Below are positions 12,221-37,862 of a stretch of 64,000 nt of DNA, in pieces. The stretch spans positions 1 through 64,000 of the forward strand of contig NZ_ABCT01000001.1 in the NCBI RefSeq assembly GCF_000170915.1, given 5' to 3'. This DNA comes from Limnobacter sp. MED105 (GTDB taxonomy: Bacteria; Pseudomonadota; Gammaproteobacteria; Burkholderiales; Burkholderiaceae_B). A program made the translations under genes and the position numbers. Below the pieces are notes generated by a model. The model was not told the DNA's origin and did no database searches. It saw only the letters and a program-made list of their open reading frames with translations. The stretch's first letter is position 1; the number at the start of each line of letters is the position of its first letter.

Positions 12221-13495
12221 TTAGAAACCCTGACACAGTGGCAAGGTCAAGGCCCACAACCGGTCTTGCCCCCAAACCACCGTGTTGCCCACTTTGAATG
12301 AAGGCACGCCCCAAAGCCCGGCGGCAAACAACTCCTCCCGATTGGCTGTAGCCCGCTCGCGCCAGGCCTCGTGCTGCAAAGCCACCTGTGCGCCTTCCCA
12401 GCGCAAGCCAGCGCGTTCTACAATTTTTCTCAGGCCTTTGTCGCTGCCCGCATCAATGCCTTCAGCCCAAACACCTTGCATATAAGAAAGCACAAATTCC
12501 TGCCCTTTGCTGTGCTGTTCGGCGAACGGGATTAGGGCCAAACCCCGCTCGGTGGGTTTGCCCACGGGGTCATTCAAGCGACCAAAGGAAATGCCGCGCA
12601 CATGCGCCTCTCGCGCTGTGTCGTACACAATGTATTCGCGTTTCACTTTGGGAACGGGTAGGCCGCGCATCACCATGGGCAACACAAAACGCAAATTGAC
12701 TTTTGCGCCAGTCCGCCGACCCAACTCGAAAATGCGAGGGGCCACAATCGCGGAATAGGGGCTGCGAAACGAGAAGAAAAAATCAATGTCGGGCGGGTTG
12801 TTCAGCGGCTTGGCGTGCTCAAGGCCGTCGTCTGCGGGAAACAGCAGGGCAATGGCCCCATTGGTTTGCGCACCCAGTGCCTGCAAACGCTGCTCCAGGT
12901 GGTACAGGCGGTCAATACCCCAATACCATTCGCCCTCGTAATACAACATGCCGCCCAGGTAGTGCCCAAGCTTTTCTCGCAAAGCGTCGGCTTGTGCAAT
13001 GTGGGTTTGTACGTCCATTTGCCCGGACGTAAGCTGGGGTTCATCGCTGCCCCACAACCATTGGCCCACCGAGGCGGCCTGCTCAACAAACTGACCGCTT
13101 TCAATGGCGGCCACCAAGCTTTGCGTGGCTTGAAGTACACGCGGTGCGGCAGGCTGCTGGCCACAATCCACAAAACTCAAACCATGACGCTGCGCCAGCA
13201 AAGCCGCATCCACGCGGCTGTAGGCCACCAGTTTTTCGCGTTCAGGCGCGGCTGAATCGGGCGGCGGGCTGACCACATAGGGCTTCAGTTCAACCTGGTA
13301 ACGCGCCAGAAAACGTGGCAAAGCCTGGGCCAGCAAATGGCTGTAGGGGTCGTCAACCTGGTGAAAGTAGTAAACCTGGTGGGGGCGGCCCGAGGCCAAC
13401 CGTGCCTTCTCGGCTTTGGCGCGTTGGGCCAGCAAGGTGCTGCGCGCAAAGCGGTGTTGGGTGATCATGGGCATCAACAGGGTTTTTAAACTCAT
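12221..13495 (-). CDS. Tandem DsbA/HCCA-isomerase-like thioredoxin-fold protein
   Basis: 424 residues with two thioredoxin-fold units of the DsbA / 2-hydroxychromene-2-carboxylate isomerase (kappa GST-like) type. Unit 1 is about residues 38-220 (VYYFHQVDDPYSHL) and unit 2 about 235-420 (DFFFSFRSPYSAI, ending GLWGVPSFKVGNTVVWGQD). Neither unit has a CxxC; both have the serine-type motif (DPYS, SPYS) of glutathione-dependent isomerases. Such enzymes are usually single-unit, so this looks like an internal duplication. AAGGTGG precedes the ATG. Substrate unknown. Confidence 0.8.
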   Translation of the reverse strand: MSLKTLLMPMITQHRFARSTLLAQRAKAEKARLASGRPHQVYYFHQVDDPYSHLLAQALPRFLARYQVELKPYVVSPPPDSAAPEREKLVAYSRVDAALLAQRHGLSFVDCGQQPAAPRVLQATQSLVAAIESGQFVEQAASVGQWLWGSDEPQLTSGQMDVQTHIAQADALREKLGHYLGGMLYYEGEWYWGIDRLYHLEQRLQALGAQTNGAIALLFPADDGLEHAKPLNNPPDIDFFFSFRSPYSAIVAPRIFELGRRTGAKVNLRFVLPMVMRGLPVPKVKREYIVYDTAREAHVRGISFGRLNDPVGKPTERGLALIPFAEQHSKGQEFVLSYMQGVWAEGIDAGSDKGLRKIVERAGLRWEGAQVALQHEAWRERATANREELFAAGLWGVPSFKVGNTVVWGQDRLWALTLPLCQGF

Positions 13496-34950: not shown

Positions 34951-35619
34951 ATGAACACGCAACCCTCCCCCGACACTCGAGCCGAACGCACCCGCAACTG
35001 GTTACAACAAGGTGTTTTGCCGGTGGTGGTGATTCCCAATGTAAAACAGGGTTTGGAAATCGCCGAAGGCTTGTGTGCGGGCGGTATTACACAAATTGAA
35101 ATTACGCTGCGCACCCCCGAGGCGCTGCAAGCCTTGGGTGAAATAGCCAAACGCTTTCCCGACATGAATGTGTCTGCCGGCACGGTGCTGACACCAGCGC
35201 AGTTTGATCGAGCCGCTGACCTGGGGGCAACGCTGTTCATTTCGCCTGGCCTAACGGAAGTGCTGGCCGAGCATGCCTTGAACAAGGGATATGCCTGGGT
35301 GCCGGGTGTGGCCACTGCATCGGAAATGATGCGTGGGCTTGAACTGGGGTTTGAATTGCTGAAATTTTTCCCGGCCATGGCGGCTGGTGGCCCCAAAGCC
35401 CTTGCTGGCATTACAGCGCCATTGGCCGCGGCACGCGTTGTGCCCACAGGTGGCGTAACACTTGAAAACCTGCCGCAGTGGCGTGAAATCAAGGCCGTGC
35501 AAGCGGTGGGCGGCACATGGCTGACTGCGGGGCTGGACGGGGTGGCCAATGTAGCCAAGGTGGTTGAGCAGCGCGCGGCGCTGGCCATGGCGGCGTGGAA
35601 CAACACGGTGCTGGTTTAA
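34951..35619 (+). CDS. eda: KDPG/KHG aldolase
   Basis: 222 residues. It cleaves KDPG to pyruvate and glyceraldehyde 3-phosphate. The TIM-barrel active site is intact: EITLRTPEAL (catalytic Glu), SAGTVLTPAQ, LLKFFPAMAAGG (Schiff-base Lys) and VVPTGGV (phosphate loop). ATG 34951 is chosen from homology and AAGGA upstream; the frame runs back into edd. Directly after its stop begins a 43-bp imperfect tandem repeat and then structured element A. Confidence 0.95.
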   Translation: MNTQPSPDTRAERTRNWLQQGVLPVVVIPNVKQGLEIAEGLCAGGITQIEITLRTPEALQALGEIAKRFPDMNVSAGTVLTPAQFDRAADLGATLFISPGLTEVLAEHALNKGYAWVPGVATASEMMRGLELGFELLKFFPAMAAGGPKALAGITAPLAAARVVPTGGVTLENLPQWREIKAVQAVGGTWLTAGLDGVANVAKVVEQRAALAMAAWNNTVLV

Positions 35620-35687
35620 TCGGCTTGGGTTCAGCTCTCTCGCAGCTTTCTTAATCGCCCAATTGGCTTGGGTTCCGATCTCTCGCC
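35620..35687. repeat. 43-bp imperfect tandem repeat bordering structured element A
   Basis: About 1.6 copies of a 43-bp unit start immediately after the eda stop. GGCTTGGGTTC...CTCTCGC occurs at about 35622-35645 and again at about 35664-35686. The inner part of the second copy also forms the outer arm of element A. It has no coding character. Confidence 0.6.
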
Positions 35688-35836
35688 AGAAAACCTGATT
35701 GTCCCTTTTTGAGATTCACCCTGACTCACCTCGCTCGGCAAAAGAGCGGGCCGAGTCTCGGTGCCGGCCTGCGGCCGACCGTGGCGGATGAATTCAAACG
35801 GGCAGGTTTTCTTGAAGGCGAGGCGATCGAAACACC
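35671..35836 (-). repeat. Structured palindromic element, copy A (minus orientation)
   Basis: Core 35688-35812. On the minus strand the core is closed by AGAAAACCTG / CAGGTTTTCT. It contains hairpin 1 (TCGGCC, loop GCA, GGCCGG) and hairpin 2 (ACCGAG-A-CTCGGC, loop, GCCGAG), the distal part of hairpin 2 being degraded. Outer arms (GGCGAG...GATCG on both sides) extend the palindrome. Copies B and C have the same design but different bases. The 130 bp between A and B (to about 35945) hold nothing I can recognise. Confidence 0.75.
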
Positions 35837-35945
35837 GCCGCCGATTGGGCGATGAAATCAGCCGTGAGTCGCGTTGTAGTGGAGAAACGCTGCTCGGGAG
35901 ACCTAGGAACCGAACTAGCAGATGTGCGCACTCTGCGGGTTTGAG

Positions 35946-36140
35946 CCAACTCGGCAGTGGGATTGCTTGTTCAGCACTTAAAGAAAACCGCCCCGTTTGA
36001 ACCAAGGCTTCAATGCTCGCCAAATGGCGACACCCAAGACCCGACCATCTGTTTTGTCGGGCTTGGGTGAATTGAATGCCTTGCTTCAAAAAGGGACTAA
36101 GCGGTTTTCTGTGCGGAATCGAGCAACCCCGACGAGGTGG
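35946..36140 (+). repeat. Structured palindromic element, copy B
   Basis: Core 35982-36110, closed by AGAAAACCGC / GCGGTTTTCT and continued inward by TTTGAA-c-CAAGGC / GCCTTG-c-TTCAAA. Hairpin 1 is TCGCC-AAAT-GGCGA (36017-36030). Hairpin 2 is CACCCAAG, a bulged A, CCCGAC, a 10-nt loop, then GTCGGG and CTTGGGTG (36031-36069). Outer arms CCAACTCG and CGAGGTGG bound it. It lies between eda and the MFS gene. Confidence 0.85.
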
Positions 36141-36180
36141 TGACAACTTGGCAACCACGACGAGTTGAGCAAAGAACCCC
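36125..36180. repeat. Partial 28-bp tandem repeat after element B
   Basis: A 28-bp unit starting AACCCCGACGAGGTGGTG (36125-36152) is followed by a diverged second unit starting AACCACGACGAG (36153 on). The unit corresponds to the five-copy array after element C. The remaining 70 bp up to the MFS start hold no clear feature. Confidence 0.6.
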
Positions 36181-36251
36181 TCGGGTTACACCCAAGTGGC
36201 ACAAGCGCGCCCACATGCGACACTGCTTGAAGTCACCACAAGAACAAAACC

Positions 36252-37538
36252 ATGTCACCCAATCACCTTTCCCCGCCGCCCCTGCGGATGTCGTTCATTA
36301 TCTGGGGCCTGGCTGCTGCTTTTTACCTGTTCGGTTTTTTCCAGCGCGTTACACCCGGCGTACTTACCGAAGAACTTAGCACCACATTTGACCTCAGCCG
36401 CGCAGCGCTGGGGAACCTGTCTGCGTTTTACTTCTACTTTTACGCCGCCATGCAAATACCCGTCGGCCTGCTGGTCGATCGAATCGGTCCCCGCAAAATT
36501 TTGACTGCGGGCTGCATACTCGGCGGTGTTGGCGCGCTGATGTTCGGCTTTGCGCCCACTCTGGGTTGGGCCGCAGTGGGTCGTGGCCTGGTCGGTGGTT
36601 CAGTTGCAGTGGCTTGGGTTTCCATGCTGATGTTGGTGGCCCAGTGGTTTTCGCCAGCGCGTTTTGCCAGCATGTCGGGCGTTAGCCTGGCCGTGGGCAC
36701 CATGGGTGCGGTACTGGCCGGCGTGCCCTTGCGTGCGCTTTCTGATTTGTTTGGCTGGCGCATGGTGATGGGTGCCAGCGGAATTATTGCGGTGGTTCTG
36801 GGCTTACTCATCTGGATTTACGTACGCGACATGCCCTCACAACGCGGCTACAAAAACCACGTCGCCAAACGCCCCGCGCATGAAGTCACCTTGCCTTTGC
36901 TCACCGCCTTGGGCCACACACTTCGCTTTCCCGCCGTGTGGTTGATTTTCTGGATTCCCAGTGGCGTGTGCGGCGCCATTCTTACGTTCACCGGCCTGTG
37001 GGGCGTGCCCTACCTGACCACCTGGCATGGGCTCAGCGTGAAAGAGGCCTCACTGATCATCACCGGCATGCTGATCGCGTTTGCCGCCGGTAGCCTGTTT
37101 TTTGGAGCACTTTCCGACAAACTCAAACAACGCAAGTTGCCCTATTTTTTGGGTGCAATTTTTTCCATCAGCGGCTTCATTGTTCTGGGTATTCAACCTG
37201 AACTTCCGATTGCACTTGTTTCCGTTTTACTTTGGGCCACGGCCTTTGGTGGTGGCTCCATGGTGCTGAGCTTCGGTTACGTCAAAGAGTCCGTACCGCA
37301 CCATTTGGGCGCAACCGCAGTGGGTATTGTGAACCTGGGTGTGATGGTCGGCCCACTGGTGCAGCAACCCGTGCTGGGTGCAATTCTTGACCACTATGCG
37401 GCTGCAGAAAACATCACCGGCGCCTACTCAAAAGCCGGCATGACCGTGTGCATGCTGGTGCTGGCGGTGTGGGTAGGCACATCAATTGTCAGTTTGATGT
37501 TGAGCCGCGAAACTCACGCAAAGCCCAGATTCGCGTGA
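36252..37538 (+). CDS. MFS transporter
   Basis: 428 residues with 12 predicted spans. The loop between spans 2 and 3 holds GLLVDRIGPRKIL, the major facilitator signature, and the cytoplasmic mid-loop is short. Start FYLFGFFQRVTPGVLTEEL is typical of the organic-anion/sugar-acid branch. The substrate cannot be read. Genes of the Entner-Doudoroff pathway lie upstream, but more than 600 bp of repeats separate them, so co-transcription is doubtful. Repeat elements lie on both sides. Confidence 0.88.
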   Translation: MSPNHLSPPPLRMSFIIWGLAAAFYLFGFFQRVTPGVLTEELSTTFDLSRAALGNLSAFYFYFYAAMQIPVGLLVDRIGPRKILTAGCILGGVGALMFGFAPTLGWAAVGRGLVGGSVAVAWVSMLMLVAQWFSPARFASMSGVSLAVGTMGAVLAGVPLRALSDLFGWRMVMGASGIIAVVLGLLIWIYVRDMPSQRGYKNHVAKRPAHEVTLPLLTALGHTLRFPAVWLIFWIPSGVCGAILTFTGLWGVPYLTTWHGLSVKEASLIITGMLIAFAAGSLFFGALSDKLKQRKLPYFLGAIFSISGFIVLGIQPELPIALVSVLLWATAFGGGSMVLSFGYVKESVPHHLGATAVGIVNLGVMVGPLVQQPVLGAILDHYAAAENITGAYSKAGMTVCMLVLAVWVGTSIVSLMLSRETHAKPRFA

Positions 37539-37547
37539 TCATCCCAG

Positions 37548-37738
37548 CCACCTCGACAGCGGATTTGCCTGTTTCGCACATTCAAGAGAACCGCCCCGTG
37601 TGAATTGATTCGCAGCGTTCGGCTGCAAGCCGACACCGAGACTCGGCCATGTCTTTTGCCGAGCTCGGTGAGCAAGAATTAATTCAAAAAGGGAAACAGC
37701 GGTTTTCTGTGCGGAATCAGGCAATCCCGTCGAGGTGG
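37548..37738 (+). repeat. Structured palindromic element, copy C
   Basis: Begins 10 bp after the MFS stop. Core 37585-37708, closed by AGAGAACCGC / GCGGTTTTCT and continued by TGAATTGATT / AATTAATTCA. Hairpin 1 is TCGGCT-GCA-AGCCGA (37619-37633). Hairpin 2 is CACCGAG, a bulged A, CTCGGC, a 10-nt loop, GCCGAG, CTCGGTG (37634-37670). Outer arms CCACCTCGAC... and ...GTCGAGGTGG close it. It could also terminate MFS transcription. Confidence 0.87.
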
Positions 37739-37862
37739 TGTTGCTTCGGCAATCCCGTTGAGGTGGTGTTGCTTCGGCAATCCCGTTGAGGGGGCGTAGC
37801 TTCGGCAATCCCGTTGAGGGGGCGTAGCTTCGGCAATCCCATCGAGGTGGCGATACTTCAGA
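37723..37862. repeat. Five-copy 28-bp tandem repeat array
   Basis: Units start at 37723, 37751, 37779, 37807 and 37835, consensus AATCCCGTTGAGGTGGTGTT plus GCTTCGGC. The units are directly adjacent without spacers; the last is partly degraded. The first unit is the outer right arm of element C, so the array looks like expansion of that arm. The period is not a multiple of three, so it is not coding. The 66 bp after it, up to the DUF3567 gene stop, are featureless. Confidence 0.9.

Follow-up and report, generated by a model that had tools for sequence, protein, structure and literature searches.

Folded palindromic elements form divergent, unlike pairs in Limnobacter genomes

Among the repeats that bacteria keep between their genes, BIME-1 is made of two oppositely oriented REPs, hybrid BIMEs exist (PMC2817692), and REPIN populations persist (PMC8049555). 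The elements that we describe here, from Limnobacter sp. MED105 and its congeners, resemble the REP/BIME/REPIN kind in being palindromic, extragenic and present in high copy number (51 copies in their own genome; 26 of 26 sites intergenic in the congener G007) and in forming inverted pairs (175 of 176 Limnobacter neighbours are divergent). The mosaic clusters and hybrid pairs described for REPs (PMC2817692) are further likenesses, and so are compensatory changes. The units themselves differ. REP units measure 20-40 bp and carry a GTAG-like tag, whereas Limnobacter cores span 121-133 nt and their ends lack such a tag; a core of ~125 nt in an element of ~195 bp, a three-way junction and fixed bulges also set them apart from REPs. 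In contrast to REPs, BIMEs and REPINs, pairing is almost strictly unlike and divergent, and the own genome has no Y1/RAYT gene. Bacterial MITEs (Correia/NEMIS, ERIC, RUP and YPAL) share with our elements a length of 100-200 bp, inverted ends, a strong fold and the absence of a protein (PMC2229807), but the Limnobacter elements have no target-site duplication and, by eye, no TA termini, and their core is complex, conserved and used in pairs. We assigned the family to neither REPs nor MITEs because its unit size, its architecture and its rule of unlike pairing are distinct and because the own genome lacks a RAYT; REP/BIME/REPIN is the nearest known kind, and it is by analogy only that the family would work like a REPIN. 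The bcr1-type repeats of the Bacillus cereus group, which are mobile, also have a conserved fold. Integron attC sites act as a folded strand whose bulges are conserved while the sequence varies, and have small genes as cargo, as a few Limnobacter pairs do; unlike attC, the Limnobacter elements are scattered genome-wide and have inverted, unlike ends, and their closing stem AGAAAACC/GGTTTTCT, judged by eye, does not fit the attC core box. A search of the open-access literature returned no title on such a Limnobacter repeat, which does not show that none is in print.

The window, that is, the whole stretch of 64,000 nucleotides that we analysed, comes from one contig of a 3.39-Mb draft genome (46 contigs). 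It holds three copies, A, B and C, which flank an MFS gene (36252-37538) just downstream of the end of eda (35619). GTDB genomes with orthologues of this MFS gene bear the name Limnobacter, in line with the genus. Bit scores are given for our first and second models of the core, R1 and R2; arms were called by sequence and arm profile.

~35618-35650: second, partial R_A-like unit beside copy A (sequence, arm profile)
35657-35687, minus strand: outer right arm of copy A, R_A (sequence, arm profile)
35688-35812, minus strand: core of copy A, A class, with closing stem, 3' bulge and two hairpins (R1 132 bits, R2 126 bits)
35813-35850, minus strand: outer left arm of copy A, L_A, with the 5' bulge adjoining the core (sequence, arm profile)
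35851-35943, no strand: spacer inside the divergent A-B pair
35944-35981, plus strand: outer left arm of copy B, L_B (sequence, arm profile)
35982-36110, plus strand: core of copy B, B1 class (R1 91.6 bits, R2 106.9 bits)
36111-36141, plus strand: outer right arm of copy B, R_B (sequence, arm profile)
37546-37584, plus strand: outer left arm of copy C, L_B (sequence, arm profile)
37585-37708, plus strand: core of copy C, B2 class (R1 134.5 bits, R2 125 bits)
37709-37852, plus strand: right arm of copy C, R_B, with its tandem amplification (tandem repeat, arm profile)

The R_B arm of copy B is followed by another R_B-like unit, and the core of this copy has 92-96% identical counterparts at four more places in the own genome. 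Copy C, whose left arm begins 8 bases past the stop codon of the MFS gene, is partnerless at its window site. Its right arm has grown into a 28-bp tandem repeat of 4.8 units (37720-37852). The spacer of the A-B pair varies from 0 to ~1.5 kb in other loci and holds genes in five cases.

A preliminary description, made from the sequence alone, had claimed three copies (A on the minus strand, B and C on the plus strand) with closing stems, two hairpins and a bulged A in the second, and all of this held. The range that it gave, 35671-37738, covered the cores and missed most of the outer arms, which belong to the element. It had also inferred selection for a folded form, a claim that is supported by covariation growing as copies are added. 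It would have been refuted by a lack of further copies in the genome, by covariation that faded with more copies or by a match, trivially explained, to a known repeat or Rfam family; further copies are present (44 with the first model, 51 with the second), covariation was stronger on 20 and then on 89 copies, and no Rfam family matched.

RNA folding energies lay far below those of dinucleotide shuffles (z of -8.5, -6.2 and -4.8 for B, C and A), and none of 200 shuffles folded as well as the real copy in any of the three cases. The reverse strand of copy B folds equally well (z -9.3), and folding alone therefore cannot name the strand. When 20 own-genome copies were placed on one structure, 92% of the cells paired and 67 cells carried changes in both partners (mean of shuffles 25); further pair types were not in excess in these copies (26, and 24.0 in shuffles). 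On 89 copies, 40 of 45 pairs showed double change (28.2 in shuffles), and double-change cells numbered 573, against 162 in shuffles and 25-79 in slid controls. The 89-copy alignment was fitted to the structure and alignments across classes are model-based; sliding the partners destroys the covariation signal. We also compared wobble types as a test of strand and counted 37 G-U against 22 A-C (p 0.067); a first version of this test, with predicted consensus structures, had given 39 against 12. The outcome depends on the method and decides neither the strand nor between RNA and DNA. G-U makes up 82 of the 3869 pair cells. A search of the whole 64-kb window at the Rfam gathering threshold matched no family, and a further Rfam search returned only RF01930, a chance match that lies away from the elements and scored 16.9 of 80 bits.

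Copies A, B and C are members of a high-copy family restricted to Limnobacter. The own genome, G000, has 44 matches with R1 at E 0.1 and 51 with R2 at E 0.01. R2 found 3-93 matches in 11 of 13 congeners searched (G007 43, G009 93, G006 60, G011 62, G012 35, G001 22, G003 46, G005 49, G008 93, G004 3 and G014 12) and none in the other two, G015 and G002; G010 and G013 were searched with R1 only. R1 matched 12 of 16 genomes of the genus and none of 44 others. When 399 Burkholderiales genomes were drawn and searched with R2, only two had matches, both Limnobacter, and none was found outside the genus. This search used stricter filters, and weak matches outside Limnobacter may have been lost.

In each element a core, usually 121-133 nt long, lies between a left and a right arm that pair with each other. 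Five classes (A, A4, B1, B2 and F3) have unlike stem sequences and keep one architecture, namely a long stem with 5' and 3' bulges and two hairpins. The 5' bulge lies in the left arm, adjoining the core, and reads TTCA in 89 of 127 cores, F3 being different; the 3' bulge, inside the closing stem, is 5 nt long in 81 and 4 nt long in 19 of 104 non-F3 cores. The loop of hairpin 2 is TTTTG in 94 and TTTAG in 30 of the 127 cores. By eye, the same bulges recur in G014 in one more set of elements, whose stems differ in sequence (7 of its 12 copies viewed), and the architecture is also kept in a class closed by GATCAAGTC, with which GAAAGCC-type A elements are paired. We annotated classes and arms at 60 loci, 24 of them from the own genome, and wherever arms were called they matched the class of their own core.

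The arrangement of the elements follows a strict rule. Among 176 neighbouring matches less than 600 bp apart in 12 genomes, 175 were divergent, one was head to tail and none was convergent. This count took 562 of 569 R2 matches, leaving out one match in G009, two in G006, three weak ones in G003 and a partial one in G008; the members of one G001 pair included in the count share 28 bases. The two members are unlike: 45 of 46 classified divergent pairs join an A-class core to a B- or F-class core, with the left arms facing each other, and the remaining pair is B with F. One pair that is not among the 60 annotated loci, in G004, is A-like on both sides. A divergent pair reads as a reverse core and then a forward core from either side.

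We placed the elements relative to genes in the congener G007 with a simple ORF rule. All 26 sites were intergenic and each adjoined one or more gene 3' ends; the neighbouring genes were convergent at 13 sites, codirectional at 13 and divergent at none. Comparison of 25 G007 loci with the G000 loci in hand gave 21 that match on both flanks, two that match on one and two that match on neither. The class make-up was unlike in 14 of the 21 shared loci, so sites persist and occupants change. The space between eda and the MFS gene is occupied by elements in five further loci. At the site of copy C, L083-L086 are empty, the element is cut short in L082, and L087, where the upstream pair is in the opposite order, has an F3 element. 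The copy-C-like element of L082 (1391-1530) ends abruptly on a short metagenome contig, probably where the assembly was broken or joined at a repeat. Whole pair units of ~430-620 bp have dispersed copies, and some B2 elements are nested in an F element, between its left and right arms (L123 and L036; others partly). We also observed that the flanks of L041 in G000 match those of two G007 loci ~6 kb apart, L112 and L113; the ~6 kb of DNA between two pairs was likely lost there by recombination.

Constraint on the fold was visible between orthologues. In 19 same-class cores shared by G000 and G007, differences fell on 36 of 1758 paired positions and on 55 of 675 unpaired ones, a rate four times lower in stems. 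Among 30 changed pairs, 2 were compensatory, 14 were kept by a single change and 14 were broken. Cores were more alike than flanks in 18 of the 19 comparisons, the exception being copy C (core 87.1%, flanks 90.6%). Gene conversion from a shared pool could possibly add to the likeness of cores but would not favour stems.

A search confined to the Y1/RAYT family in the own genome did not identify a mover. PF01797, found in 5 of 14 controls, had no match there, and a RAYT as the mover in this genome was rejected. Exact repeats of at least 3 at the element ends occurred in 2 of 45 B, 1 of 61 A and 0 of 22 F elements (1.8, 0.9 and 0 in shuffles); we found no target-site duplication, and tandem arms blur the ends. 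No clean empty site was found, the best candidates retaining part of an arm. Spread by plasmid or phage was rejected for want of a match to copy C in plasmid and phage collections, and an exact 24-base A-class pattern had no match in viral contigs. Intrinsic terminators at the element ends were rejected as well (6 terminator-like sites, one of them inside B, against 3.7 in shuffles), and no promoter-like site was found in the region.

Some pairs enclose genes. Five divergent pairs 1071-1537 bp apart hold a two-gene cargo (two pairs in G009 and one each in G006, G001 and G004), and a recognisable cell-wall hydrolase is present in four of them. In one G009 cargo and in that of G006, an NlpC/P60 protein (E 4e-16 and 2e-16) precedes a protein whose start resembles that of a lipoprotein. 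This gene set also stands at the same cupin-ppc locus in G001, where the match of the hydrolase frame is limited to residues 66-154. The second G009 cargo consists of a C92-family protein (E 1e-7) and a partner with a signal-peptide-like start, and that of G004, a genome with only three copies, two of which flank the cargo, combines a small protein with a 132-aa protein without a family match. The cupin-ppc locus contains cargo in three species and a short pair in two (G000 and G007). The partner proteins have no Pfam match and are only inferred to be immunity proteins. A model of the immunity-like protein was usable (pLDDT 75.8), and no PDB entry matched it at E 0.001 or lower. For the 132-aa protein the model was poor (pLDDT 39.3), and its sequence matched nothing in PDB. 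Of 16 genomes of the genus, 15 carry a T6SS sheath gene, so T6SS could conceivably deliver the cargo. A T6SS link of a conserved pair near T6SS genes was dropped, since in G000 and G007 this pair is flanked by flavoprotein oxidoreductase-like genes. Among six close NlpC/P60 relatives, three lie away from any detectable pair. Two more divergent pairs are 3.9-4.0 kb apart, and the one that we examined encloses ordinary chromosomal genes.

The preliminary description had left a mobile repeat, a structured RNA and a transcript-end element open, and the choice is still not settled; the outer arms, the divergent unlike pairing, the one-genus range, the in-place class swaps and the gene cargo go beyond it. 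The evidence leans towards a mobile paired repeat placed at gene 3' ends, with doubts nearly as weighty as the support. On this explanation, the copies would be Limnobacter-specific modular palindromic elements of left arm, folded core and right arm that work as divergent unlike pairs, an A-class unit with a B- or F-class unit and left arms facing. They would spread non-autonomously, most likely through an enzyme acting in trans that recognises the core when it is folded as a single strand, by analogy with RAYT transposases, which are thought to act in this way on REPINs. The elements would stay at gene 3' ends, selection would keep them folded, and recombination would swap them between loci. 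The data show copy number, genus restriction, covariation and the pair rule, the position at gene 3' ends in one congener, the swapping of classes at shared loci and the slower change in stems. Movement and function are inferred, with the mover unidentified, and so are the role of a trans-acting enzyme in the spread, its recognition of DNA folded as a single strand and any host service, such as a bidirectional transcription block between genes. The absence of a Y1/RAYT gene from the own genome, of a target-site duplication and of a clean empty site counts against mobility; the ratio of 2 compensatory to 14 broken among 30 changed pairs, the exception of copy C and the undecided strand test also count against the explanation. 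Taken whole, the reading as a paired element of REPIN/BIME type, with folded units that are much larger, could as easily fail as hold. If it is true, bacteria keep interspersed pairs whose units are far larger and more intricately folded than REPs and obey a strict rule of unlike units back to back; movement without a RAYT, persistence at gene ends and the picking up of antibacterial modules could be tested in one genus, and a family with strong covariation, absent from Rfam, would be added.

A possible alternative is that the elements act mainly as RNA, as structured 3' untranslated elements or transcription blockers, with spread secondary and a two-fold symmetry that lets them work on transcripts from both sides. 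In its favour, all 26 G007 sites adjoin the 3' end of one gene or more and divergent genes flank none of them, stem positions are conserved in place, fold energies lie far under those of shuffles and a divergent pair shows the same core order from either side. Yet G-U was not clearly above A-C and accounts for so few of the pair cells (82 of 3869), no promoter-like site lies in the region, terminators at element ends are no more frequent than by chance, and copies also occur in tandem and nested forms. We consider it unlikely that the elements are neutral and inert, left over from an old burst, with arms kept complementary by template switching or arm-to-arm conversion and with classes swapped by ordinary homologous recombination. 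The class swaps and the likely 6-kb deletion between pairs do fit plain recombination, nested arms supply homology, and arms grow in tandem; but arm correction should erase the 3' and 5' bulges, which are kept, orthologous cores change less than flanks (18 of 19) and mostly outside stems, and neutrality would not require divergent, unlike pairing.

Least credible is a reading in which the A- and B-class units are the ends of gene cassettes that bracket effector/immunity-like cargo, most pairs now being cargo-less. It draws on the five divergent pairs with two-gene cargo (two in G009, one each in G006, G001 and G004), on the cupin-ppc locus with cargo in three species and a short pair in two, and on the G004 genome, where two of only three copies flank cargo. 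Against it, cargo is known from three loci only, at one of which it may descend from a single event, three of the six close NlpC/P60 relatives occur without a detectable pair, both units of the G004 pair are A-like and its main gene matches no family, and the ~4-kb divergent pair examined encloses ordinary chromosomal genes. A bolder version, also improbable, is a dispersed cassette system in which A and B/F ends would be the left and right substrates of an unidentified recombinase that works on folded ssDNA, inserts elements into older cores and mobilises small antibacterial gene pairs between the ends; nested arms would then be a record of insertions, and most pairs would now be empty.

Modules of an NlpC/P60 protein with a secreted partner were also seen without detectable elements, on contig C24 of G000 (12833-13282) and contig C17 of G015 (119008-119439). 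Two-gene modules between divergent elements, each a cell-wall hydrolase or an unidentified protein with a secreted-looking partner, lie at L152 1848-2799, L154 2030-3098, L153 1726-2888 and L076 1957-2549.
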